A stretch of DNA of 64,000 nucleotides, taken from the NCBI RefSeq assembly GCF_015169395.1, contig NZ_CP063458.1:5022001-5086000 (forward strand), given 5' to 3'. Below are positions 24,223 to 59,332 of the stretch, piece after piece (position 1 is the stretch's first letter; each line of letters starts with the position of its first letter). The position numbers and the translations under genes are program-made. The stretch comes from Humisphaera borealis. GTDB taxonomy: Bacteria; Planctomycetota; Phycisphaerae; Tepidisphaerales; Tepidisphaeraceae. Below the pieces are notes generated by a model. The model saw only the letters and a program-made list of their open reading frames with translations. It was not told where the DNA came from and searched no databases.

Positions 24223-27200
24223 TCACTTCCCCGCACCGAGCCGTTCGTAGTACTTGCGAACCTGCTCGGCAAACTCGGGCGGTACGGGCTCGCGGTCGAT
24301 GGGTACCAGGGCCTCGCCGCCCTGTCGGCGGAGCAGCTCTTCGGTGATTGCTTTGCGTAGTTCCGCCAGGGGCAGGCCGATCTCGTTGCGGACCAGATCC
24401 CAATTCGGTTCTTTCGAATGGCGGTCGACTTCAGCGCGGACGGCCTTGGCCCGCTCGCGAATCCGGGCGGCTTCGGCGCGGAGGCGGGGGTCGGAAACCA
24501 TCTCTTCGACGTCGCGCAGGCGGTCGGCCCATTCGCGGAAACCTTCGCCGGTGAGGGGGCCGGCCTGCCGCCCTTCGTCCGAAGGCGCGCCCGGGCCGCG
24601 ATCGGCGACTTCGGCGGGATTGGCCTGGTCGTTGGTGTTCCCGCCGCGAAGTCCGGGCTGACGCTGTCCGGGCTGCCTTCCCTGACCGGGCTGGCCTTGC
24701 TGTTGAGCCTGGGCTTGTCCCGGCGGATTGCCCTGCCCCGGCTGGCCGGGTTGCTCGCCCGCTTGCTGGCCTTGCCCAGGTTGCTGACCCGGCTGCTGAC
24801 CTTGTTGTCCGGGCTGTTGACCCTGTCCGGGCTGAGCACCGGGCTGTTGACCGGCATTAGCCATCTGCGGCTGACCTTGTTGCCCCGGCTGTCCTTGTCT
24901 TGGCGTCTGGCCCTGCTGCTGGCCTTGCGGCGGATTCTGGCCCGGCTGCGGATTGCCTTGGGCAACCGCCGGTTCTCCGGCGGGGCGGGTTGTGCCACCG
25001 CGCGGCTGCCGCTCACCGGGTTGCTGGCCGTTGGGCTGCTCTCCAGTGGCCTGCGGAGCTTCGCCGGGCCGTGTCGTTGGTCCGCCGCGGGGATTGCGAC
25101 CACCGTCGGCGAGTTGGCGTTCGTCGCCGGCGGGGCGGGTTGACGGATTACCGCGGCCGTTGCTGCGATCGGCGAGCGCAGGCCGCGTGGCCGGGGCGGC
25201 GGCCGGCGGCTGTCCGTTTCGGCCCATCTCGCGATCCAACTGCTGCGCCAGCGCATCGACTTCGGCCCGGGCGCGACGCAGGGCCTCGTCCTCGTCGCCG
25301 AGCACACCCTTGGCGGCCTTCTCGACGCCTTCACGGAGCTTCGTCACGCTCTTAGCCGCCTCTTCGCCGGCCTGCTGAGCTTCGCCGACGAAGCCACGAT
25401 CGACCAGACGGCGGGCGGCATCGATCGCCTCGTCCGCACGCTCCTGGCGGACGTTGCGGACGGTGTCGTACAACTGCTTGGACAGCAGCGGCTCCGTAGC
25501 CTCGGCCTTCTCGATCGTCTGCCGCATGTTCTCGAGCAGACTCTCAAGTTTCTGTCGCTGCTGCTCGAGATCCTGGGCGATGCGTTCGCGGTTCGGCGTC
25601 TTCCCTTCACCGGCCCGGAGCGACGGGCGCTGCGGGCGATTCTGGCCGGGCGAGTTTTGGCCGGGTGCGTTTTGACCGGTCTGTGCATTGGGTTCGCCGG
25701 AGGGATCACCCGGCTGAGGCTGTTCACCGGGCTGACCGGCGTTGGCTTGGGCATCGCCCGGTTGACCTGCCGGCTGGCCGAGCCGCTGCTGACCGCCTCT
25801 TGGCTGCCCGGCGCGTGCCTGACCGGATTGAGCCTGTCCCGACTGACCTTGCCCCGACTGGCCCTGACCGGACTGGCCTTGTCCTGCCCGACCTTGTCCC
25901 GGCTGTCCAGCCTGCGCCTCTCCCTGCTGGGGCTGGCCTTGCGGCGATCCATCTTGTGGCTCACCCGCACCCGGCTGCTGACCGGCCTGCGGCTGCTGCC
26001 CTTGTTGCTGCCCTGGCTGCCGTTGACCTGCGCTGGCCTGTGGCTGCTGGCCGGGTTGGTTTGGCTGTTGCTGTTGACGCTGCGGCCGGGGCTGGCCGTT
26101 CATTTCGGCCAATTGGTCCGACAATTCCTGCTGCTTCTGGTCGAGTTGCCGGGCTTCCTGCCGCATGTTCTCTACGGCTTCGCCGAACTGGCCGGCGGCC
26201 TGACGGCGGAACTCTTCCTTCATCTGGTTGAGCTTCTGCTCGGCACGCGCGCCGGCGGCCGATGCCTCCTGCGTCTTGTTCTGCTCGAGCGCCTCGGCGG
26301 CTTTGCGGACGTCTTCGCGCGTTTTGTCGAGCTGATCCTTCGCCTCGGCCATCCGCTCCTGATTCTCCGGCTGTTCCATCCGGTCACGCAGCTGATCGGT
26401 GTCCTGAAGCATCTCGCGCTGCTGGTCGCGCAGGCGGGCGAGCTGCCGTTTGATCTCTTCCTTCTTCGCTTCTTCCTTCGCCGCGTCGAGCGCCGACTGC
26501 AGTTCCTTCATCTGTTTGTTGAGGTCTTCCTGCCGCTGAGCCAACTCGCGCAATCGGCTGAGGACCTGCCGCGTCTCGCGCGCCTGGGCCTCCTGCTGTT
26601 GTTGCTGGGCCTGCTGCTGCGCGGTGCGCTGCTGCTCGTAGCGGTTCTGTTCCTGGTCGAGCTTGAGCTGGTCCAACTGCCGCTGCTTACGGCTGCTGGC
26701 ACTGGACTGCGACGGCTGACCCTTCTGCTTGCTGTTCTTGCGGACGACTTCGTGCTCGCGGGCACGGAGCTTGAGTAGATCCTGGTACGCCGCCTGCTCG
26801 GCCGACAGTGCGTTGGGCAGACGATCCACGGCCGGCCCGCCGGCGGCGGAAGTCAGCTCGCTGACGGCATTGTCCATGTGCTTCAGGGCGCTGGCGAGGA
26901 AGCTCTTGCTCCGCTCGTCGGTCAGCTTCTCGGCCATCCCGGCGGTCTTTTCCTTCAACTCCGCCTGCGACTCGGCGATCAGCTTGACGTCAGGCACAAA
27001 CTGCGGCGTCGGGTCCTTGGCGATCTCGCGACGCATCACCTTCCACGTCGCGGCGATGATCTCCTTCTGCTTCTCGGCGTTCTCCTCGGCCTGCTGCGCG
27101 TTCTGGCTGGCCTGCTTCTGTTGCTCTTCCTGGGGTTCCTCGCTGGGCTGTTCCCCCTGACGGAAGATCTCTTCGAACGGCCGAACCTCGGCAAAGAACA

Positions 27201-28722
27201 TGTCGCCGGACGTTCGGCGGATCTTGCCGTCGGGACCGTTGTCTTCCACCCAGAGGTAGTAGCTGAGCAACTGATCCGGCTCGGCCGACATCTTTTCCAG
27301 CGCCACGGTGTGGGCGACGTCTTTGCGGTCCTTCGCGGCAACGCCTTCGGCGAGTACCACATCTTTCGGCGGTTGCCCTGCAATGCCGTAGCTCATGCCG
27401 ACACGTTTCACGCCGAAGTCATCCCACACCTTGGCCTTGACGGTCATCTCTTCGATCGGCGAGACGTCGACGTCTTTCGCCGGGAACTCCAGCTTCAGCT
27501 CCGGCGGGCGATTGGCAGTGACGTTCAGCGCGAGCTGCGCCGGCCGCTTGGCATCGCGGCCGTCTTCGTCTTTCAGTTGCAGGCGGTACGTCTGCGACTG
27601 CGTCATGTCGACGGCGGCGGTGTACTGGTTGGGGTTCGCCGGGTCGGCGACCAGCTTCACAGGTGACGGCTGGGTGGTCGGAGCGTCGGTGTTTGCCGCG
27701 CCGTCGATCGGCTTACGCGGTGCGGGAATCAACACCGCTTCGGTGACGGGCTTGTTGAGCCGCAGCGTGAGCGTGGCTTTGGTCCCTTCGACCGCGGTCA
27801 CCGTGCGGACGTCCTGGACCACCTTCTCTTCCAGACCCGTGTAGGTGGGAAAGTTCAGCTTCGCATCGGCCTGTTCCAGCTCGGGGTGTTCGTAAACACC
27901 GACCTTGTACCAGCGGGTTTGCTGGCCGGCGTAACGGATGGCGTAGGTCAGACCGTTCTGCAGCGGTGACGTGCGACCGGCAAAGATCGGGTCGTCGAGG
28001 CTCTTGGCCATCGACAACTGGCTGGTCTGGCCGGCGCCGTCTTTCAACAGCAGCTGTACGTCGCCGGGCATCCGTTCGCCGAAACGGGCCAGGACGATCA
28101 GTCCGGTGCCACGTTCGACACTGGTGTCCTCCGGTTCGACCTTGATCTCAAAATCCTTTGCGACCGGTTGTGTCGCCGGGCCACCGGCCCAAAAGCCTTC
28201 GGAACCGGGTCGGCGGATGACATCTGCGACGATCGCCACCACCACCGCGACGAACGCGACCAGCAGCAGCGCGTGGGCCAGACCGGTCGTCCGCATGCGG
28301 GCAGCGGAAACGAGATCAAGCCAGCGATGCTGGCGGGCGTGGGCGAGAGATTCTTCGACAACGGTTTGCTCGAGGTAACCGAGGCGGCGCGTCTTCGAGG
28401 CCTGGTGCTGTTCGACCGCGGCCAGCAGTTTGGCGTCGAGGTCGGGGAACTTCGTCTCGACGCGACGGGCGATCCACATGGGGTCGCGGACGATGCGCAG
28501 CGCGCGGACGATGATCGGAACGATCAGCAGCGGAAGGACAACCAGGGCTACGAGTAGAAAGCCGGGGACGGCGTACCCGCCGCCGCGCGTCCAGGCGAGA
28601 ACGGCGAGCCCGACCGCCGCCAGCGCCAGCCAGACCGTCGCCAGCCCCGCCATCAGCAGGAGCCGGCGGTAACGAACGCTGACCTTATCGAGCTCGCGAA
28701 GGAGTTGTTCGTTGTTCTGCAT
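24223..28722 (-). CDS. DUF4175-like membrane protein with coiled coil and Gln-rich repeats
   Basis: This 1499-residue protein begins with membrane helices (about 20-44, 50-76 and 147-168). A periplasmic-type beta-rich region (about 185-490) resembles the DUF4175 family. From about 530 to 870 it is a charged, Gln/Glu/Arg-rich coiled coil. From about 870 to 1035 and 1170 to 1355 it is low-complexity Gln/Gly/Pro (QPGQ, and SGQGQ units repeated in tandem), interrupted by a helical segment near 1040-1165. The C-terminal 100 residues are helical (WADRLRDVEEMVSDPRLRAE) and conserved-looking. It is in the MoxR operon between the BatA-like and VWA/GATase genes. Long antisense frames across the Gln-rich part are artefacts of CTG/CAG-rich codons. 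Confidence 0.82.
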   Translation of the reverse strand: MQNNEQLLRELDKVSVRYRRLLLMAGLATVWLALAAVGLAVLAWTRGGGYAVPGFLLVALVVLPLLIVPIIVRALRIVRDPMWIARRVETKFPDLDAKLLAAVEQHQASKTRRLGYLEQTVVEESLAHARQHRWLDLVSAARMRTTGLAHALLLVAFVAVVVAIVADVIRRPGSEGFWAGGPATQPVAKDFEIKVEPEDTSVERGTGLIVLARFGERMPGDVQLLLKDGAGQTSQLSMAKSLDDPIFAGRTSPLQNGLTYAIRYAGQQTRWYKVGVYEHPELEQADAKLNFPTYTGLEEKVVQDVRTVTAVEGTKATLTLRLNKPVTEAVLIPAPRKPIDGAANTDAPTTQPSPVKLVADPANPNQYTAAVDMTQSQTYRLQLKDEDGRDAKRPAQLALNVTANRPPELKLEFPAKDVDVSPIEEMTVKAKVWDDFGVKRVGMSYGIAGQPPKDVVLAEGVAAKDRKDVAHTVALEKMSAEPDQLLSYYLWVEDNGPDGKIRRTSGDMFFAEVRPFEEIFRQGEQPSEEPQEEQQKQASQNAQQAEENAEKQKEIIAATWKVMRREIAKDPTPQFVPDVKLIAESQAELKEKTAGMAEKLTDERSKSFLASALKHMDNAVSELTSAAGGPAVDRLPNALSAEQAAYQDLLKLRAREHEVVRKNSKQKGQPSQSSASSRKQRQLDQLKLDQEQNRYEQQRTAQQQAQQQQQEAQARETRQVLSRLRELAQRQEDLNKQMKELQSALDAAKEEAKKEEIKRQLARLRDQQREMLQDTDQLRDRMEQPENQERMAEAKDQLDKTREDVRKAAEALEQNKTQEASAAGARAEQKLNQMKEEFRRQAAGQFGEAVENMRQEARQLDQKQQELSDQLAEMNGQPRPQRQQQQPNQPGQQPQASAGQRQPGQQQGQQPQAGQQPGAGEPQDGSPQGQPQQGEAQAGQPGQGRAGQGQSGQGQSGQGQSGQAQSGQARAGQPRGGQQRLGQPAGQPGDAQANAGQPGEQPQPGDPSGEPNAQTGQNAPGQNSPGQNRPQRPSLRAGEGKTPNRERIAQDLEQQRQKLESLLENMRQTIEKAEATEPLLSKQLYDTVRNVRQERADEAIDAARRLVDRGFVGEAQQAGEEAAKSVTKLREGVEKAAKGVLGDEDEALRRARAEVDALAQQLDREMGRNGQPPAAAPATRPALADRSNGRGNPSTRPAGDERQLADGGRNPRGGPTTRPGEAPQATGEQPNGQQPGERQPRGGTTRPAGEPAVAQGNPQPGQNPPQGQQQGQTPRQGQPGQQGQPQMANAGQQPGAQPGQGQQPGQQGQQPGQQPGQGQQAGEQPGQPGQGNPPGQAQAQQQGQPGQGRQPGQRQPGLRGGNTNDQANPAEVADRGPGAPSDEGRQAGPLTGEGFREWADRLRDVEEMVSDPRLRAEAARIRERAKAVRAEVDRHSKEPNWDLVRNEIGLPLAELRKAITEELLRRQGGEALVPIDREPVPPEFAEQVRKYYERLGAGK

Positions 28723-28731
28723 AGCGTTCTC

Positions 28732-28833
28732 GTAGGGTCCGCCTTGGCGGACGCGATCGGTATTTCAAGTAGGGTCCGCCTTGGCGGACGTGCACGGTTT
28801 CGAGAGCCACGCGTCCGCCAAGGCGGACCCTAC
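28732..28833. repeat. GGGTCCGCCTTGGCGGAC hairpins, two direct and one inverted
   Basis: Arms at 28732-28754 and 28769-28790 are direct copies, and 28812-28833 is inverted. The core GGGTCCGCCTTGGCGGAC is self-complementary (7-bp stem, TT loop). The inverted arm contains the TAG stop (28830-28832) of the BatA-like gene. The same family occurs at 32307-32328 and 59221-59332. Confidence 0.92.
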
Positions 28834-31001
28834 ACCGCAGCTCCCGCTGTACTCCGCCGTGCCAGCAGTCCTGCGACCACCGTCTCTGCCGCGACAAAGC
28901 CGAGGACCGCCACGATCAGCCACCGCCACAGCTTCTGCTTGCTCTCCAACTCGGCCGTCTTGAGCTGCCGTTGCCGTTCGACGACCTGCTCGGCGGTCAT
29001 CGCCTTGCCGACCTTGGCGCCCCAGCGTTCGAGTTCTTCGACGCCGACCGGGGCGGTGCGGCTCTCGTCGGCAGGCAAATTGACGGCCAGCGGCGTTTCG
29101 CGTCCGCCGATGGATAGCCGATAGATGCCCGGCCGGTCGGATGCCTCGGCGGCTGTCGCTGTCCCGCCGACGGGCAGATCGATCTTGCGGCCGTCGGGCG
29201 TCAGCAGCACGCGAGCCTCGCCCGGCTTCGCCGCCGGAAGCGCAATTGGCTCGTACACATTCTGTTGCGCTTCAACGGTCGTTCCGTCCTTTCTACGCAC
29301 CAGACCGCCGATCAGTGGCACAAACTTGGTGGAAAGTGCCAACTGGCTATCCGCCGGTTGCCAACCGGCCGTCGCGACAAGCAGCTTTCCCTGCCCGATG
29401 GTCTTCTCCACCAGGAAGGGGTCGCCGTCATCAAACCAGACGATGGTGCGGGCTTCTGCCGCTTGTGGCAGCGTCAACTTGCGGTGTTTCCAGAAGCGAA
29501 TCTTGGTGAAATCGGCAAAGCGAGCCTCGGCGAAGGGGACAAAGAGCGGGTGCGACAATTCGACGCGGGCGAGCAGGGCGTAATCGCGTGGCGGGGCTTC
29601 GGTGATCGTCGGTTTGGCGTCGGACAGCATTGCCGCCAGCCCGTCGGCGGTGGGAAGGTCCTTCAAAACCCAGAAGACGTCGCCGCCGCTTTCTGCGTAT
29701 TTGCGCAGGGTTGCGGCTCGCTCGGCTGGAACAGGTGCCGCGACAATCGCCAGCCGAAGGTCGAGCAGGTCGGCGGCACCGATCGGATCGGTCGGCTTCC
29801 GGGTGACAAACTCGATCGATCGCTGTGGCAGGTCTCCGAGCGCGCCGCGGACATAGTACAGCAGGCCCTGGAGGTCCTCCGACGCGTCTTCGCCAATGTA
29901 GAGCAGACGGACGATGTCGGTTCGCGGCGGAACGATATACAGGGTGTTGTCGAAGTCGAAATCGTCGCCGCGGAGGATCAGGCGGTCGGGCGGGGCGGCG
30001 GTAGTGCCTGCCGGCTGCGTTGACGGCCCGCCGGGCGAGCTGGTGCTTATTGCCGCGAGGCCGGGCCACGGTACGCGAACGACCAGGCTTTTGCCGGCGG
30101 GGGCGTAGACCTTGATCGGGTCGAAACCGGCGATCGGACCGGCGGAACTTGCCCAGGTGATCGTGAACTGTTCCGTTGCTCCGCCGGGTTGATTGGTGAC
30201 GCGAACCCGAAGCCGGTTATCGGTGTCGCCGGGGGCGCCCGGCGTCGCAGCCTGCTCGGCGAGTTGCAGGCCGGCGTTGGTCGTCTGCTTCGGCGAGACC
30301 GACTTGACGTCGAGCAGCACGCTCGGCGGCCACTGATGGCCCTGAAGCGCTTCGATGTGCCCGCCCGCCTGGATGTCAGACACCAGAACAAGTTGCCGGC
30401 CGGATCGATCGATATCGGTCCTGGCGCCTTCTTCTGCAACTAGCAGATCGGCGACCGCTGCGACGGCATCGCCCAGCCGGGTAGCGGCAAAGGTGGGCTT
30501 GGTGTCGGCCAGACGGGCTTTCATCGCTGCCGCCCGAACGGCGGGCGCGAGCTCGTTCCACTCGGCAAACGTCAGCCCCGGCCGAACCTGGCGGTCGAAA
30601 AAGTAGAGTGAGGCTTCGTCCTGCGGCTTCAGGTCGTCGATCGTCTGCTGCACGCGGTCGGTGGCCTGCTGCCAGAGGTCGCCGCGCATCATGCTGGCGC
30701 TGGTATCGACGAGAATTGCGACGCGCCGGCCGCGACCCTGGCCGCTGGCCGTGTCTTCTTTCGCTTGCAGGAAGGGCCGGCAGAAGGCCACCGCCAGCAA
30801 TGCGAGGGCCGCCGCGCGCAGCAGCAAAAGCAGAATGTTCGAGAGCCGGCTTCGCTTGGTCAGCTTGGGCGGCGACGGCTGCAGAAACATCAGCGAACTG
30901 AAGGCCTGCTTCCCCTGCGGCGTGCGCCGGATGAGATGAAAGACGATCGGCAGCGCGATCGCCAGCAGGCCTGCGAAATAAAGTGGGGCGAGTAAGCCCA
31001 T
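28830..31001 (-). CDS. BatA-like membrane protein with VWA domain
   Basis: The 723-residue protein starts with the aerotolerance-regulator N-terminal segment: a first helix (about 3-24), the loop PQGKQAFSSLMFLQPSPPKL, and a second helix (about 54-74). A VWA domain follows with the metal-site motif DTSAS at 99-103. The middle and C-terminal parts are mixed alpha/beta, and a last hydrophobic helix lies near 695-718 (LWRWLIVAVLGFVAAETVVA). The family anchors a metal-dependent protein-binding domain to the inner membrane and works with MoxR ATPases and DUF58 proteins, both upstream here. The TAG stop lies within a dispersed palindrome. Confidence 0.88.
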   Translation of the reverse strand: MGLLAPLYFAGLLAIALPIVFHLIRRTPQGKQAFSSLMFLQPSPPKLTKRSRLSNILLLLLRAAALALLAVAFCRPFLQAKEDTASGQGRGRRVAILVDTSASMMRGDLWQQATDRVQQTIDDLKPQDEASLYFFDRQVRPGLTFAEWNELAPAVRAAAMKARLADTKPTFAATRLGDAVAAVADLLVAEEGARTDIDRSGRQLVLVSDIQAGGHIEALQGHQWPPSVLLDVKSVSPKQTTNAGLQLAEQAATPGAPGDTDNRLRVRVTNQPGGATEQFTITWASSAGPIAGFDPIKVYAPAGKSLVVRVPWPGLAAISTSSPGGPSTQPAGTTAAPPDRLILRGDDFDFDNTLYIVPPRTDIVRLLYIGEDASEDLQGLLYYVRGALGDLPQRSIEFVTRKPTDPIGAADLLDLRLAIVAAPVPAERAATLRKYAESGGDVFWVLKDLPTADGLAAMLSDAKPTITEAPPRDYALLARVELSHPLFVPFAEARFADFTKIRFWKHRKLTLPQAAEARTIVWFDDGDPFLVEKTIGQGKLLVATAGWQPADSQLALSTKFVPLIGGLVRRKDGTTVEAQQNVYEPIALPAAKPGEARVLLTPDGRKIDLPVGGTATAAEASDRPGIYRLSIGGRETPLAVNLPADESRTAPVGVEELERWGAKVGKAMTAEQVVERQRQLKTAELESKQKLWRWLIVAVLGFVAAETVVAGLLARRSTAGAAV

Positions 31002-32218: not shown

Positions 32219-32328
32219 GTGACACGGGCGTCTCGCCCATGTTCGCGCTCCATCGACAGTTCAAACAAATACAGGCGAGACGCCCATTCCAAGACGCCGC
32301 GTCTCGCGTCCGCCAAGGCGGACCCTAC
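32219..32328. repeat. Composite: GGGCGTCTCGCCC pair plus single GGGTCCGCC arm
   Basis: A GGGCGTCTCGCCC hairpin (32226-32238) and its inverted copy (32275-32286) are joined to a GGGTCCGCCTTGGCGGAC-type arm at 32307-32328. The latter contains the TAG stop (32325-32327) of moxR. Two families therefore sit side by side in one 112-bp gap. Confidence 0.85.
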
Positions 32329-33341
32329 TTTCCAGGCGGCTTTACTGCTTCCAACAGGCGATTGATGACGCTCTCCACCGTGACGCCTTCGGCCTCGGCC
32401 CGGTAATTCACCAGGATGCGATGCCGGAGCGTGGCGTGGGCCAGTGCCTTGATATCGTCATTCGAGACGTGCGCGCGACCCTGGAACAATGCCCTTGCTT
32501 TCGCGCCCAGCACCATGAACTGGGCCGCCCGAAGACCGGCACCCCAGCTCACCCATTGCTTCACGAAGTCCGGCGTTTCCGCCTGACCCGGTCGGCTCGC
32601 GGCGGCCAGGCGGACGGCGTAACGCACCACATCTTCGGCGACAGGCACTTTTCGCACGATCTCATGAAACCTCAGAACGTCTTCGCCGGTAAAGAGCGGC
32701 TCGATGGGCTTGGGTTTGCCGCCGGTGGTTCGCCTGACGACTTCCACCTCGTCATTCTCGGGCAGGTAGTCGATGATCACGTTGAACATGAACCGGTCGA
32801 GCTGCGCTTCGGGCAGGGGGTAGGTGCCTTCCTGTTCGATTGGGTTCTGCGTGGCGAGCACGAAGAACGGCTCTTCAAGCGGGTAACGAACGCCGGCCGC
32901 GGTGACCTGGTGTTCCTGCATCGCTTCGAGCAGTGCCGCTTGTGTCTTTGGGGGCGTGCGGTTGATTTCGTCGGCCAGCAGCACGTTGGCGAAGACGGGC
33001 CCTTTGACGAACTGCATCCGCCGACGGCCGTCGCCGGAATCTTCCAGGATTTCGGTGCCGGTGATATCGGCGGGCATCAGGTCGGGTGTGAACTGGATGC
33101 GCTGGAACTTGAGGTGGAACATCTGCGCCAGCGAGCGCACGAGCAGTGTCTTGGCAAGTCCCGGCGCGCCGGTGATCAGGCAATGGCCGCCGGCGAACAG
33201 GCTGTACAGCAGCAGTTCGGTGACATCGTGCTGCCCGACGACGGCTTTGGACAGTTCCTCGCCGATGCGCCCCCGCGCCGCGCGGAGTTGCTCGACAGCC
33301 TGGCGTTCGGATTCGTAAAGGTCGGTCTCTGGTTGGCTCAC
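32325..33341 (-). CDS. MoxR family AAA+ ATPase
   Basis: The 338-residue protein is a MoxR-type AAA+ ATPase. Walker A is GAPGLAKT at residues 58-65, Walker B is LLADEIN at about 121-127 with Asp124 and Glu125, and the following NRTPPKTQAALLEAMQE is diagnostic of the family, as is ATQNPIEQEGTYPLPEAQLD (sensor 1 region). The protein is thought to remodel or activate partners, with DUF58 and VWA proteins as adaptors. The likely start is GTG at 33339-33341, with GGAG 6 bp upstream on the minus strand. It is the second-to-third gene of the operon, after DUF4159. Confidence 0.95.
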   Translation of the reverse strand: MSQPETDLYESERQAVEQLRAARGRIGEELSKAVVGQHDVTELLLYSLFAGGHCLITGAPGLAKTLLVRSLAQMFHLKFQRIQFTPDLMPADITGTEILEDSGDGRRRMQFVKGPVFANVLLADEINRTPPKTQAALLEAMQEHQVTAAGVRYPLEEPFFVLATQNPIEQEGTYPLPEAQLDRFMFNVIIDYLPENDEVEVVRRTTGGKPKPIEPLFTGEDVLRFHEIVRKVPVAEDVVRYAVRLAAASRPGQAETPDFVKQWVSWGAGLRAAQFMVLGAKARALFQGRAHVSNDDIKALAHATLRHRILVNYRAEAEGVTVESVINRLLEAVKPPGK

Positions 33342-34365: not shown

Positions 34366-37014
34366 TTACTGAGATCTCGCCGGTTGTGTTGCTCCTTGGG
34401 CTGGAACTGGCCGAGTATTCGGTGCCGCGCCTTCTCGATCCATCCCGGCGGCGATCTCAAGAAGCAGTCGATGGCCTTCGCGGAAACGAGGCGCCTCTTC
34501 CAGTGCCCGGATGATCTGGTTGCGCGCCGCCGGCAGTTGCTTCTCCTCGACGAGCAGTTTCGCGAGTTGGTAATGGTGTTCGGCCTTGCCGAGAGGATCG
34601 AGCATCAGCAGTGCTCGGTGACTCTCCATTGCCAGGCGTCGATCGCCGATCGAATTGGCGGATTTCGCCAGCAGGCGGTAGGGGGCCGGAATCAGCGGAT
34701 TGATCGCAATGATTTGCTCGGCGGCGACGCGGACGGCTGGCCAGTCTCCGGCCGCCTCGGCCAACTCCGCCAGCCGGAGGCGAGGTTCGATTCCGTCGGC
34801 GTCGAGCGCGACATGCTTTTCGAGCATTCGGCGTTCGTCGGCGGGCTCCTTCAAGGCGCGATGAACTGCCGCCATCAGCAAATAGGGTCCGCCCGCCTGG
34901 CCGCTTGTCGGGTATAGCTCAATGGCCTTGGAAAGCGGTGTTTTGGCGGCGGCGAACTTCTCCTCGGCCAGCAGTGCCCGTCCCTCGCCGAGCAGACCAT
35001 AGAAGCTATTGGGATGCTCCTTGTTCCACGCCGCCATCTCGGCACTTCCGGCATCCAGTGCGACTTCCGGCCGCTTCCAGTCCGTGCCCGGCTTGCCCAG
35101 CTTTGAAGCCTGCTCCTTCAGCCAGGCGTCAAAGTTCGCATCGAGCTGATCGATCGGCACGGTACGCTTCGCCAGCGCGTCGTTGATGCGGACATTGTCG
35201 CCCAGATCGGCGAGCACTTTGCCAATGGTGTTCTCGCCGAAGCGGTCGGCGATGTACTGCACCACCATGGACGACTCGTAGTACGCAAACTGCAGGTGCA
35301 TTGGCGACGGCGGCTTCAGGAATGCTCCACTGAGCTGACTGACCGGCGTCGCTCCGCCGGCGAGAATCAGCTCGCGATACTCCGGCGTCATCGACTGTCC
35401 CCACGCCGCGTTCTCACGGCGTTCCTCGTACACGCTGATGCCTTCGCTGAGCCATCGCGGCATCTTGTTCTTGGTTTTGCCCAGCGTGACGGAGTGGCAG
35501 AACTCGTGCCATAGAACCGCTTCCCAGTTCGCCGGCCGCGCCATGCGCGAGGCAGGGCTGTTGATGGTGATCACCGGTCCGAAGCAGACCCCCAGGAATC
35601 CAGATCCGCCCGGCAAACCAAAGGTGCGGATGGCGAAATCGCTTTGCTTGGGAAAGACCTCGACCGATACCGGCCCGGCGATTTCTACGCCGTAGCGCTT
35701 TGTCAGGCGTTCTCTGGCCCGCGTCAGAAGCCGCAGGGCACGGTCGCCGTAGAGGTCGGCTTCGCGTCCATCCATTCGAAGCCTGAAGTGCGCGTTCTCA
35801 AGGATGCGATACTTCGACAGCACGTCGTTCAACGAGACCAGGTTGTACGCGACGACGTTGTACGGATCGGCCTCAAGGGCGGCGGCTGCCCGTTTCCAGC
35901 CCTCTTCGTCCTTGCCCAGGCGCAGAAGATCCTGGCAGAGCTGCACGTTCGCCGGCTGGTAGTTCTGTGCCACCTCCAGTGCCCGCCGCTGGTAGGCAGC
36001 GCCTTCAGCGAAACGGTACTTCTGCGACAGTTTCAGGCCAATGAGGTGATCGACTTCGGGGTTGGCGATCCACGTGGAAAGAGCTTCGGCGCGGGACGTC
36101 TGTTCCTTCGTGGTATCGCCGGCGAGATGAGCCAGAACGGCGCGGTATGCCCACGCCCGGGAATGGCGCGGATTGATTTCAAGGACCTTTGCGAGAATGT
36201 CCTCGGCAGCTTGGTAGCCTTCCCGGTCGATCAGGTTGTCGGCCTGGAAAAGCAGGCTGTCGATGTGACGGGGGTTGAGCTCGAGCGATTTCGTGAGGGC
36301 GGCCGTCGCGCGTTCGGCATCGCTCTCCTGGTACGCCAATGCCAGGCCAAGGTGTGCATCCGGACTGTCAGGGGCGCGCTTCAGCGCCCCGGCGAAAGCC
36401 TCGGCGGCCAGCGCATAGTCGAACTTGGCCAGCGACAACTCTCCCGAAGCGAAATAGGGCTCGGCGGAGGTCGGGTCATCCTTCTTCGCACGATCGTAGT
36501 AGGTTTCGAGCACAACCCGGGCATCGGCACCCGTTGCGAGCATCGCACGCCCGGCGGCAACGCGGGAAGACACCTCTTCGAGTCGGCGGGGGGCTGCCTC
36601 GGCCAATTCGCGGATGGACTGCAACAGCCCTGTCGCTTCATCGGCCCGGCCCGATCGTCGAAGAACTTCGACGCCGATCCACTTCAGCGGAAGACTGAAC
36701 GTGTGGATCTGGTGCGCCGCCTCAAACGTCTTCAGTGCGTCGGCGTATTTTCCGGTCGTTAGTTCGGTTCGGATCTTGAGGAGCCACCACTCTTCGAACC
36801 AGCGATTCGATTCCACGCCTTTTGCCGCGGCGTCCTGGCAGGCGGCGTAATCGCCGGTTTCGTAGAGTTTTCGCGCCTCTGCAAGACTCTCGGCCGAAGC
36901 GCATTCCCCGGTAGCGACCAATGTCGCAAGGACCGCCAGCACGCGGAGAAGAATCCTTCGCGAGTGCGAAAAACAGTGCAAAACGCGGGTTTGGGCCCCG
37001 ATCCGGTTCAGCAT
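34366..37014 (-). CDS. TPR protein with gluzincin (peptidase MA-like) domain, operon leader
   Basis: The 882-residue protein starts at the ATG at 37012-37014; a longer frame to 37434 is noncoding sequence with terminators. A signal peptide (about 20-40, LAVLATLVATGECASA) is followed by TPR-like helices (about 45-410), a domain with HEFCH at 503-507 and a downstream WLSEGISVYEE, then more TPR repeats (about 680-860). HExxH with the later Glu is the zinc site of gluzincin peptidases, here the peptidase MA/DUF1570-like group. It lies 90 bp upstream of the DUF4159 gene and leads the same-strand series. It may be a periplasmic protease or a TPR scaffold; activity is inferred. Confidence 0.8.
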   Translation of the reverse strand: MLNRIGAQTRVLHCFSHSRRILLRVLAVLATLVATGECASAESLAEARKLYETGDYAACQDAAAKGVESNRWFEEWWLLKIRTELTTGKYADALKTFEAAHQIHTFSLPLKWIGVEVLRRSGRADEATGLLQSIRELAEAAPRRLEEVSSRVAAGRAMLATGADARVVLETYYDRAKKDDPTSAEPYFASGELSLAKFDYALAAEAFAGALKRAPDSPDAHLGLALAYQESDAERATAALTKSLELNPRHIDSLLFQADNLIDREGYQAAEDILAKVLEINPRHSRAWAYRAVLAHLAGDTTKEQTSRAEALSTWIANPEVDHLIGLKLSQKYRFAEGAAYQRRALEVAQNYQPANVQLCQDLLRLGKDEEGWKRAAAALEADPYNVVAYNLVSLNDVLSKYRILENAHFRLRMDGREADLYGDRALRLLTRARERLTKRYGVEIAGPVSVEVFPKQSDFAIRTFGLPGGSGFLGVCFGPVITINSPASRMARPANWEAVLWHEFCHSVTLGKTKNKMPRWLSEGISVYEERRENAAWGQSMTPEYRELILAGGATPVSQLSGAFLKPPSPMHLQFAYYESSMVVQYIADRFGENTIGKVLADLGDNVRINDALAKRTVPIDQLDANFDAWLKEQASKLGKPGTDWKRPEVALDAGSAEMAAWNKEHPNSFYGLLGEGRALLAEEKFAAAKTPLSKAIELYPTSGQAGGPYLLMAAVHRALKEPADERRMLEKHVALDADGIEPRLRLAELAEAAGDWPAVRVAAEQIIAINPLIPAPYRLLAKSANSIGDRRLAMESHRALLMLDPLGKAEHHYQLAKLLVEEKQLPAARNQIIRALEEAPRFREGHRLLLEIAAGMDREGAAPNTRPVPAQGATQPARSQ

Positions 37015-58044: not shown

Positions 58045-58461
58045 ATGTATTCGCAAGGCCTACCTGTCTTCATCGCAAAAGCTGGCGGCGTAGCGCCGGC
58101 CTGGTTCGTGCTTCCTGTCTTTCTGCTCGTCGCTGCGGTCGCAATCGGTACGTTCTTCTGGCAGTTCGGCCGTTCCCGGCGAATGCTCGAAGACTGGGCC
58201 AAAGCAAATGCGCTACAGCTCGTTGAGGCCAGGTTCCGCTGGTTTTTTCGCGGGCCATTCTTCTGGACGTCGAGCAAGGGGCAGACCGTTTACCGGATCT
58301 GCGTTCGCACCTTCGAAGGCCACACCCACGCCGGATGGGCCAGGTGTGGCGGATGGTTTCTCGGCCTGCTGACGGACAAGGTCTCTGTGATCTGGGACAA
58401 CCCCGCACCGAACTCGACGGGTGGATTTCCTGTCATCATGCGGCCGCCGAACCAGGGGTAA
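58045..58461 (+). CDS. Small membrane protein of unknown function
   Basis: This 138-residue protein has one hydrophobic helix (about 19-43, WFVLPVFLLVAAVAIGTFFW) and a basic segment, then a domain with RWFFRGPFFWTSSKGQTVYRI and a C-terminus ending VIMRPPNQG. GAGG lies 9 bp upstream of the ATG. The gene starts 27 bp after rmlB and ends 4 bp before the alkylation-repair gene, so all three are likely one transcript. No family is recognised. Confidence 0.7.
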   Translation: MYSQGLPVFIAKAGGVAPAWFVLPVFLLVAAVAIGTFFWQFGRSRRMLEDWAKANALQLVEARFRWFFRGPFFWTSSKGQTVYRICVRTFEGHTHAGWARCGGWFLGLLTDKVSVIWDNPAPNSTGGFPVIMRPPNQG

Positions 58462-58465
58462 CGTC

Positions 58466-59224
58466 ATGCCAAACGCCGGCCCGGCTGCCCGCATCTCAGC
58501 CATTCCCCAGGACGTTCTGATCCGGCTGAACAACGGCACCATGGCGGCCCGAAACCTGGTCGAAGGCCTGGCCGTCGATTTCCAGAAGTTGATGCAGGCC
58601 GTGGCTCCCGGCGTTCGGCCTGAAAGCCTTGCTTCGATTGATCCGGCGCTGGGCATCACCCGCCGAATGGCGCTAGCGGCGCAGTGTCTGCTCGACCATT
58701 CCAAGCCGAAGGACCTCAGGAAGCTTTCGCAAAGTCCGAGCGACACCGTCCGCGGCTGGGCGGCGTATGTTGTCGGTCTCACGCCCGGCATCTCCCTGGA
58801 AGATCGGTTGTCGCGCATCCGCCCGCTGGCCGACGATCCGCACTTCGGCGTGCGTGAATGGGCGTGGCTCGCGGTTCGGCCGCACGTTGCCGCCAACATC
58901 GAAGCCGCGATCTCACTGCTGACGCCATGGACCGCCGACGCCTCGCCGGCGATCAGACGGTTTGCCAGCGAAGTCACCCGGCCGCGGGGCGTCTGGTGCA
59001 GTCACATCAACCTGCTCAAGACAACGCCGGAGTTGGCGTTGCCGATCCTGGAACCGCTGCGGGCCGACGGGGAGAAATACGTGCAGGATTCGGTCGCGAA
59101 CTGGCTGAACGACGCCGGTAAGTCGCAGCCGAAATGGGTGAAGACGTTGTGCAAACGCTGGCAGAAGGATTCGAAGTCATTGGCGACGGCGCGAATCTGT
59201 AAACGGGCGATGCGAAGCTTGTAG
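58466..59224 (+). CDS. DNA alkylation repair (AlkD/AlkC-like HEAT-repeat) protein
   Basis: The 252-residue protein is built of HEAT-like helical repeats. Motifs resembling the alkylpurine DNA glycosylase group are FGVREWAWLAVRPHVA (about 130), ASPAIRRFASEVTRPRGVWC (about 168), and YVQDSVANWLNDAGKSQPKW near 210. The conserved Trp and Arg/Asp positions used to hold extruded bases appear present, but I cannot separate AlkC from AlkD by eye. It is placed between rmlB and rmlD with no functional link to them. The TAG stop lies within a dispersed palindrome arm. Confidence 0.75.
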   Translation: MPNAGPAARISAIPQDVLIRLNNGTMAARNLVEGLAVDFQKLMQAVAPGVRPESLASIDPALGITRRMALAAQCLLDHSKPKDLRKLSQSPSDTVRGWAAYVVGLTPGISLEDRLSRIRPLADDPHFGVREWAWLAVRPHVAANIEAAISLLTPWTADASPAIRRFASEVTRPRGVWCSHINLLKTTPELALPILEPLRADGEKYVQDSVANWLNDAGKSQPKWVKTLCKRWQKDSKSLATARICKRAMRSL

Positions 59225-59332
59225 GGTCCGCCTTGGCGGACGCGGCTTTTTCTGCAGCCGTTCCCGTTGCCGGCCCGTGCGACGCCTGCACCGTAACCAT
59301 CGGCCCTTCGCGTCCGCCAAGGCGGACCCTAC
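59221..59332. repeat. Inverted pair of GGGTCCGCCTTGGCGGAC hairpins
   Basis: Arms at 59221-59244 and 59309-59332 are inverted copies. The first includes the TAG stop (59222-59224) of the alkylation-repair gene. The second ends 10 bp before the acetyltransferase start. The 64-bp spacer is unique. Confidence 0.92.

Follow-up and report, generated by a model that had tools for sequence, protein, structure and literature searches.

A GTAG-tagged, REP-like repeat family that supplies the TAG stop codons of genes in a planctomycete genome

Introduction

In the GTAG REP superfamily, this tetranucleotide serves as the standard tag at the 5' end (PMC3733652; PMC6006769). In REPs, GTAG is a guide beside the foot of the hairpin, and it is recognised by the transposase (PMC6006769). 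Di Nocera et al. reported in 2013 that the TAG of GTAG REPs can supply the stop codon of a gene, and they also reported GTAG repeats in Planctomycetes (PMC3733652). In this study, we analysed a stretch of planctomycete DNA of 64,000 nt (the window, along which positions are numbered), its genome and related genomes, in which short palindromic arms carry the stop codons of genes.

Materials and Methods

Genes were called by our own three-periodic Markov-model caller in a 1.23 Mb sample, which comprised the window and the DNA surrounding the first half of the arms; this sample is non-random, and arms beyond ~3.8 Mb outside the window were only counted. For 27 of the 40 genes that end in an arm, not including the BatA-like (S40) and alkylation-repair (S38) ones, the C-terminal tail was searched against nine genomes from the same taxonomic family. 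For the excision test, the flanks of 21 stop-supplying paired elements were joined in silico. Empty sites were compared between the sister species G024 and G008, and G023 and G002; most sites were unreadable, with their spacers replaced.

Results

The window contained six exact GTAGGGTCCGCC arms and one further arm with one mismatch, and the chance expectation with one mismatch allowed was 0.39. The stops of the BatA-like, moxR and alkylation-repair genes are the TAG of GTAGGGTCC (Table 1), and here the sequence-only reading was right in both sequence and coordinates. It had counted three out of three, which holds per locus but not per arm: three of the six exact arms supply a stop, and the other three face no gene 3' end. 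The pair at the BatA-like gene consists of two 22-bp arms, GTAGGGTCCGCCTTGGCGGACG and CGTCCGCCAAGGCGGACCCTAC, with 100% complementarity and a spacer of 21 nt, and it folds end to end at -57.1 kcal/mol (as RNA). When 28769-28833 was cut out in silico, the end of the BatA-like gene read ...GCG GTT TGA. The third arm of this locus lies 9 nt before the start codon of the following gene (24223..28722, - strand), and the right end of the pair at the alkylation-repair locus lies 9 nt ahead of the start of a GNAT gene (59342). The relatives of the MoxR protein belong mainly to Planctomycetota and Verrucomicrobiota.

Table 1. Arms, genes and stop codons in the window, with the stops restored by excision
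Feature	Position	Strand	Basis or remark
Exact GTAGGGTCCGCC arms	28732, 28769, 59221	+	
Exact GTAGGGTCCGCC arms	28822-28833, 32317-32328, 59321-59332	-	
Third arm of first locus	28732..28753	+	no stop supplied
Inverted pair, 65 bp, REPIN-like	28769..28833		inverted-repeat search
BatA-like gene	28830..31001	-	ORF; Pfam BatA/VWA_2
TAG stop of BatA-like gene	28830..28832	-	from arm
Probable ancestral TGA stop of BatA-like gene	28765..28767	-	in-silico excision, strand - position 35168
Single arm at moxR	32306..32328	-	
moxR gene	32325..33341	-	ORF; Pfam MoxR-type AAA_3
TAG stop of moxR	32325-32327	-	within single arm
Alkylation-repair gene	58466 or 58421..59224	+	ORF 58421..59224; Pfam DNA_alkylation
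TAG stop of alkylation-repair gene	59222-59224	+	left arm of 112-bp pair
Inverted pair, 112 bp, alkylation-repair locus	59221..59332		
Stops restored on excision			L057 TCC TAA; L058 TCT TAG; L062 TCG TGA; window BatA-like GTT TGA

The genome is one 7.19 Mb contig, along which exact copies of GTAGGGTCCGCCTTGGCGGAC are dispersed (n=218), and the reversed-pattern control of GTAGGGTCCGCCTTGGCGGAC had 0 copies in the same genome. In the sample, GTAG stands directly before the core in 106 of 116 cores. Of the 117 sample arms, 49 were solitary, and there were 34 inverted pairs, mostly of 64-120 bp; inverted pairs within 400 bp, the arrangement seen in REPINs, accounted for 34 of the 83 sample elements. 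The hairpin of a single arm has an energy of -10.7 kcal/mol. A short palindromic stem-loop in many dispersed copies, an unpaired 5' GTAG tag in most members and a mainly extragenic position (106 of 117 arms intergenic or at a gene stop) were all found, and the arms fit GTAG-tagged REPs that are often paired as REPIN-like hairpins. The related pattern GTAGGGTCCGC-loop-GCGGAC was present in 16 of 61 genomes (15 relatives besides the one studied here); the loop differs from genome to genome, and the highest copy number was 388. The sister family in the relative G020 (388 pattern copies, mostly GTAGGGTCCGCTTCAGCGGAC) has a different loop and a strong pyrimidine tract ahead of GTAG, and lies mostly 9-30 nt past intact stops.

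The claim of the sequence-only reading holds genome-wide, as judged from the sample: the numbers of arms that supplied the TAG of a called gene, lay between genes, lay inside called genes and straddled a gene end were 40 (34%), 66, 10 and 1, respectively. Some of the 10 inside arms lie in weak or frame-shifted calls; in at least one case (L082) the call seems to be frame-shifted, with the real gene ending at the TAG of the arm. Called stops of 40 genes fell at offset 0 from the arm, with at most three at any other offset within 60 nt, and an in-frame TAG was far more frequent than read-through of the arm (40 vs ~2, p ~3e-17 against 1/3). Random landing of a TAG-bearing repeat, which had been called unlikely from the three loci, is ruled out by this pile-up at a single exact position. 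The gene caller gave stop-supplying shares of 2/20 in G020 and 2/20 in G024, and in G023 the share was at most 3/30 by open frames of more than 90 codons, a cruder criterion than the gene caller. The three relatives pooled (7/70) differed from this genome (40/117) at p = 0.0002. Gene starts crowd the arms too, and those on the opposite strand have their peak at exactly 9 nt from GTAG (6 cases). At L044:4067-4134, two convergent genes take their TAG stops from a single 68-bp element, and the homologues of each gene stop at the same residues.

Of the 27 tails searched, 24 had homologues whose alignment extended up to, or close to, the last residue. Compared with the closest homologue, 12 of the 24 proteins ended at the identical residue and most others within a few residues, with one off by 19. 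The same end residue as in the genus mate was found for 8/13 arm genes and for 5/10 arm-free TAG controls. The end-point scatter was alike in both groups, and therefore the TAG of the arm sits at the natural end of the protein. Large truncation of the proteins was ruled out by this C-terminal comparison with controls. At the ends supplied by arms, the stop codons of the homologues were TGA, TAA or TAG. Examining the stop codons of homologues had also been proposed in the sequence-only reading, and TAG was found in the genus mate for 2/10 arm-free TAG controls and 1/12 arm genes; because the genus mate mostly has TGA even for arm-free TAG genes, stop turnover is too fast for these codons to reveal which is the older, the TAG or the arm.

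In-frame stops at the next codon appeared on excision in 4/21 elements and in 0/42 of the other frames (p = 0.01). The remaining 17/21 paired elements had no next-codon stop, and for them one has to suppose that the old stop has disappeared. Two clean empty sites were found in the sister species (L332/L355 and L369/L390), both without GTAG. At the former, the arm at L332:1968 of G024, compared with L355 of G008, precedes the stop of a gcvPA-like gene by a few bases, and translation continues through it. From the excision-restored stops and the GTAG-free empty sites together, it is probable that the TAG belongs to the element, which sits one base ahead of the ancestral stop. The L332 arm appears to lengthen the gcvPA-like protein by ~10 residues, to an end at a TGA that overlaps the next ATG. 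Two congeneric species share one left arm at a common site (L374 in G023 and L391 in G002), and therefore some copies persist across speciation.

Whole REPIN-like pairs also lie in frame inside genes, at L059:9911-10005 (G000, ~1.04 Mb) in a valyl-tRNA synthetase-like gene and at L069:9927-10020 (~1.92 Mb) in an AroE-like gene, inserted in loops that are variable among relatives, and a third gene (L094) holds a single arm in frame. The elements of 94-95 bp that lie in frame within genes have lengths not divisible by three, and therefore insertion is not always plain addition. As a guide to the element junctions, the intragenic copies were rejected, the host loops being too variable among relatives. 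The empty sites and the intragenic copies indicate gain or loss of elements, without pointing to an enzyme. The genome had 11 Y1_Tnp hits above the cut-off, of which 0 had an exact arm within 1.5 kb; with two mismatches allowed, there were just two weak arm look-alikes near these hits, and a RAYT flanked by the same REP was not found in this genome. There may be a RAYT that works in trans or that escaped the Pfam model. Two near-identical Y1 transposase genes lie in tandem between AAGGGGACATCACTCTTTT-type repeats at G000:C1:4158951-4160170 (L031, L032).

Discussion

We believe that the best explanation, and a reasonably probable one, is that a GTAG-tagged REP carrying TAG enters one base before the stop. 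The arms would be GTAG-tagged REPs, often in head-to-head pairs that resemble REPINs, and would belong to the type that HUH (Y1) RAYT transposases mobilise; their GTAG end would be part of the element. A copy would enter one base before the stop, where its G would finish the last codon and its TAG would terminate the protein at the same residue, while the old stop would be left stranded past the element and would then decay. Entries nearby in the other two frames would read through and would be largely removed by purifying selection. In this scheme we infer transposase-driven insertion, purifying selection and the decay of the old stop. Purifying selection accounts for the frame bias, but not for the ~10x excess over positions just past the stop: 40 arms supplied a stop and 12 lay 0-9 nt past an intact one, against a neutral position expectation of 3:10 (p ~3e-16). 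An insertion machinery that prefers one base before stops (or G-TAG stops), which is to say stop-codon-specific targeting that exchanges host stops for those of the element and leaves the protein unchanged, seems doubtful to us. In the relatives, the bases ahead of GTAG are rich in pyrimidines, with T or C at position -1 in 26/30 cases in G023, and the bias is weak in this genome; it may be a trace of where the transposase cuts.

Elements of the IS200/IS605 type insert on the 3' side of a fixed tetranucleotide. The TAG could likewise be the older stop of the host, with the element entering directly 3' of an existing GTAG and the stop codons unchanged, which we consider possible but rather unlikely. 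Such a target would account for the unchanged protein ends and for the many elements that abut the next start codon. Site availability also agrees with it, as arm-free GTAG stops and GTAG sites 0-9 nt past a stop occur at 143:30, which matches the 40:12 of the arms (p = 0.27), and the last-codon composition is nearer to that of GTAG-stop genes than to that of all genes (log likelihood ratio 3.7). However, the empty sites of the sister species have no GTAG at the junction, the four excision-restored stops past the element would be superfluous, and the L044 element ends both convergent genes, which is hard to obtain from one target on one strand. In known REPs, moreover, the GTAG guide belongs to the element (PMC6006769). 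On the whole, we judge a TAG supplied by the element to be likelier than a pre-existing GTAG target, its main rival.

Selection might instead favour a stop placed in a strong hairpin, through tight termination, protection of the mRNA 3' end or tuning of expression. The arms do hug both sides of gene ends, and in E. coli translation is affected by REPs that lie up to 15 nt from a stop, but that effect is downregulation by stalling and brings no benefit (PMC12306157). One sister family also lies mostly 9-30 nt past the stop, and the stop-supplied genes have, judging from their tails, no obvious common function; a benefit of the hairpin is thus very unlikely in our opinion. We give hardly any credence to an artefact in which open frames merely end at the in-frame TAG of the repeat while the real gene ends elsewhere. 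The genes do come from our own caller, and a few of its calls close to arms, L054 for example, are doubtful; against this stands the alignment of homologues at 24/27 tails, among them flagellar-, secretion-, PhoH- and Fur-like proteins.

The interpretation offered by the sequence-only reading is thus partly supported. Its proposal that insertion occurs at or replaces stop codons survives as a takeover in which the TAG of the arm succeeds a stop formerly at the same codon, on the basis that the old stop lies one base past the element in 4/21 testable pairs and that arm-free homologues end near the same residue with mixed stop codons. Its other proposal, selection of the arm for the stop that it contains, is unnecessary, as a 5' GTAG tag is the norm in this REP superfamily (PMC3733652; PMC6006769), and the GTAG-starting sister families in the relatives supply stops far less (~10%).

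These numbers show how a mobile repeat can settle almost harmlessly in gene-dense DNA, in that the stop at its edge can replace that of the gene at the same residue. The contrast with the sister families (34% vs ~10%) offers a handle for separating target choice from selection. Caution is also needed in annotation, as the stop codons and 3' ends of genes next to GTAG repeats may in fact belong to the element.

Among known systems, the family resembles IS200/IS605 and TIRYT, in which HUH/Y1 enzymes act on hairpins, and Y1 proteins are present in this genome. A GGGGWSAS-type motif has been reported for TIRYT (TIR-flanked Y1 transposases); the AAGGGGACATCACTCTTTT repeats at the tandem Y1 genes have a motif of this type and not the GTAGGGTCC arm. 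REPINs likewise consist of two inverted REPs and a spacer that form one long hairpin (Bertels and Rainey 2011, PMC3116915); unlike in REPINs, 49/117 exact arms here stand alone and no RAYT was found beside any arm. With the GTAG REPs of Di Nocera et al. (2013), the family shares a short stem-loop with a 5' GTAG tag, a stem of 6-7 bp and a very short loop rich in T, a copy number in the hundreds, single or dimeric occurrence and a position near gene 3' ends (PMC3733652). The core TCCGC was not found in the main text of that paper, figures apart, where this consensus may be given (PMC3733652). What goes beyond that study here is that the stop-supplying share is measured (34%) and placed at the natural protein end. 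The supply of stops by GTAG repeats is therefore known, and this planctomycete family, its high rate and its exactness are the additions.
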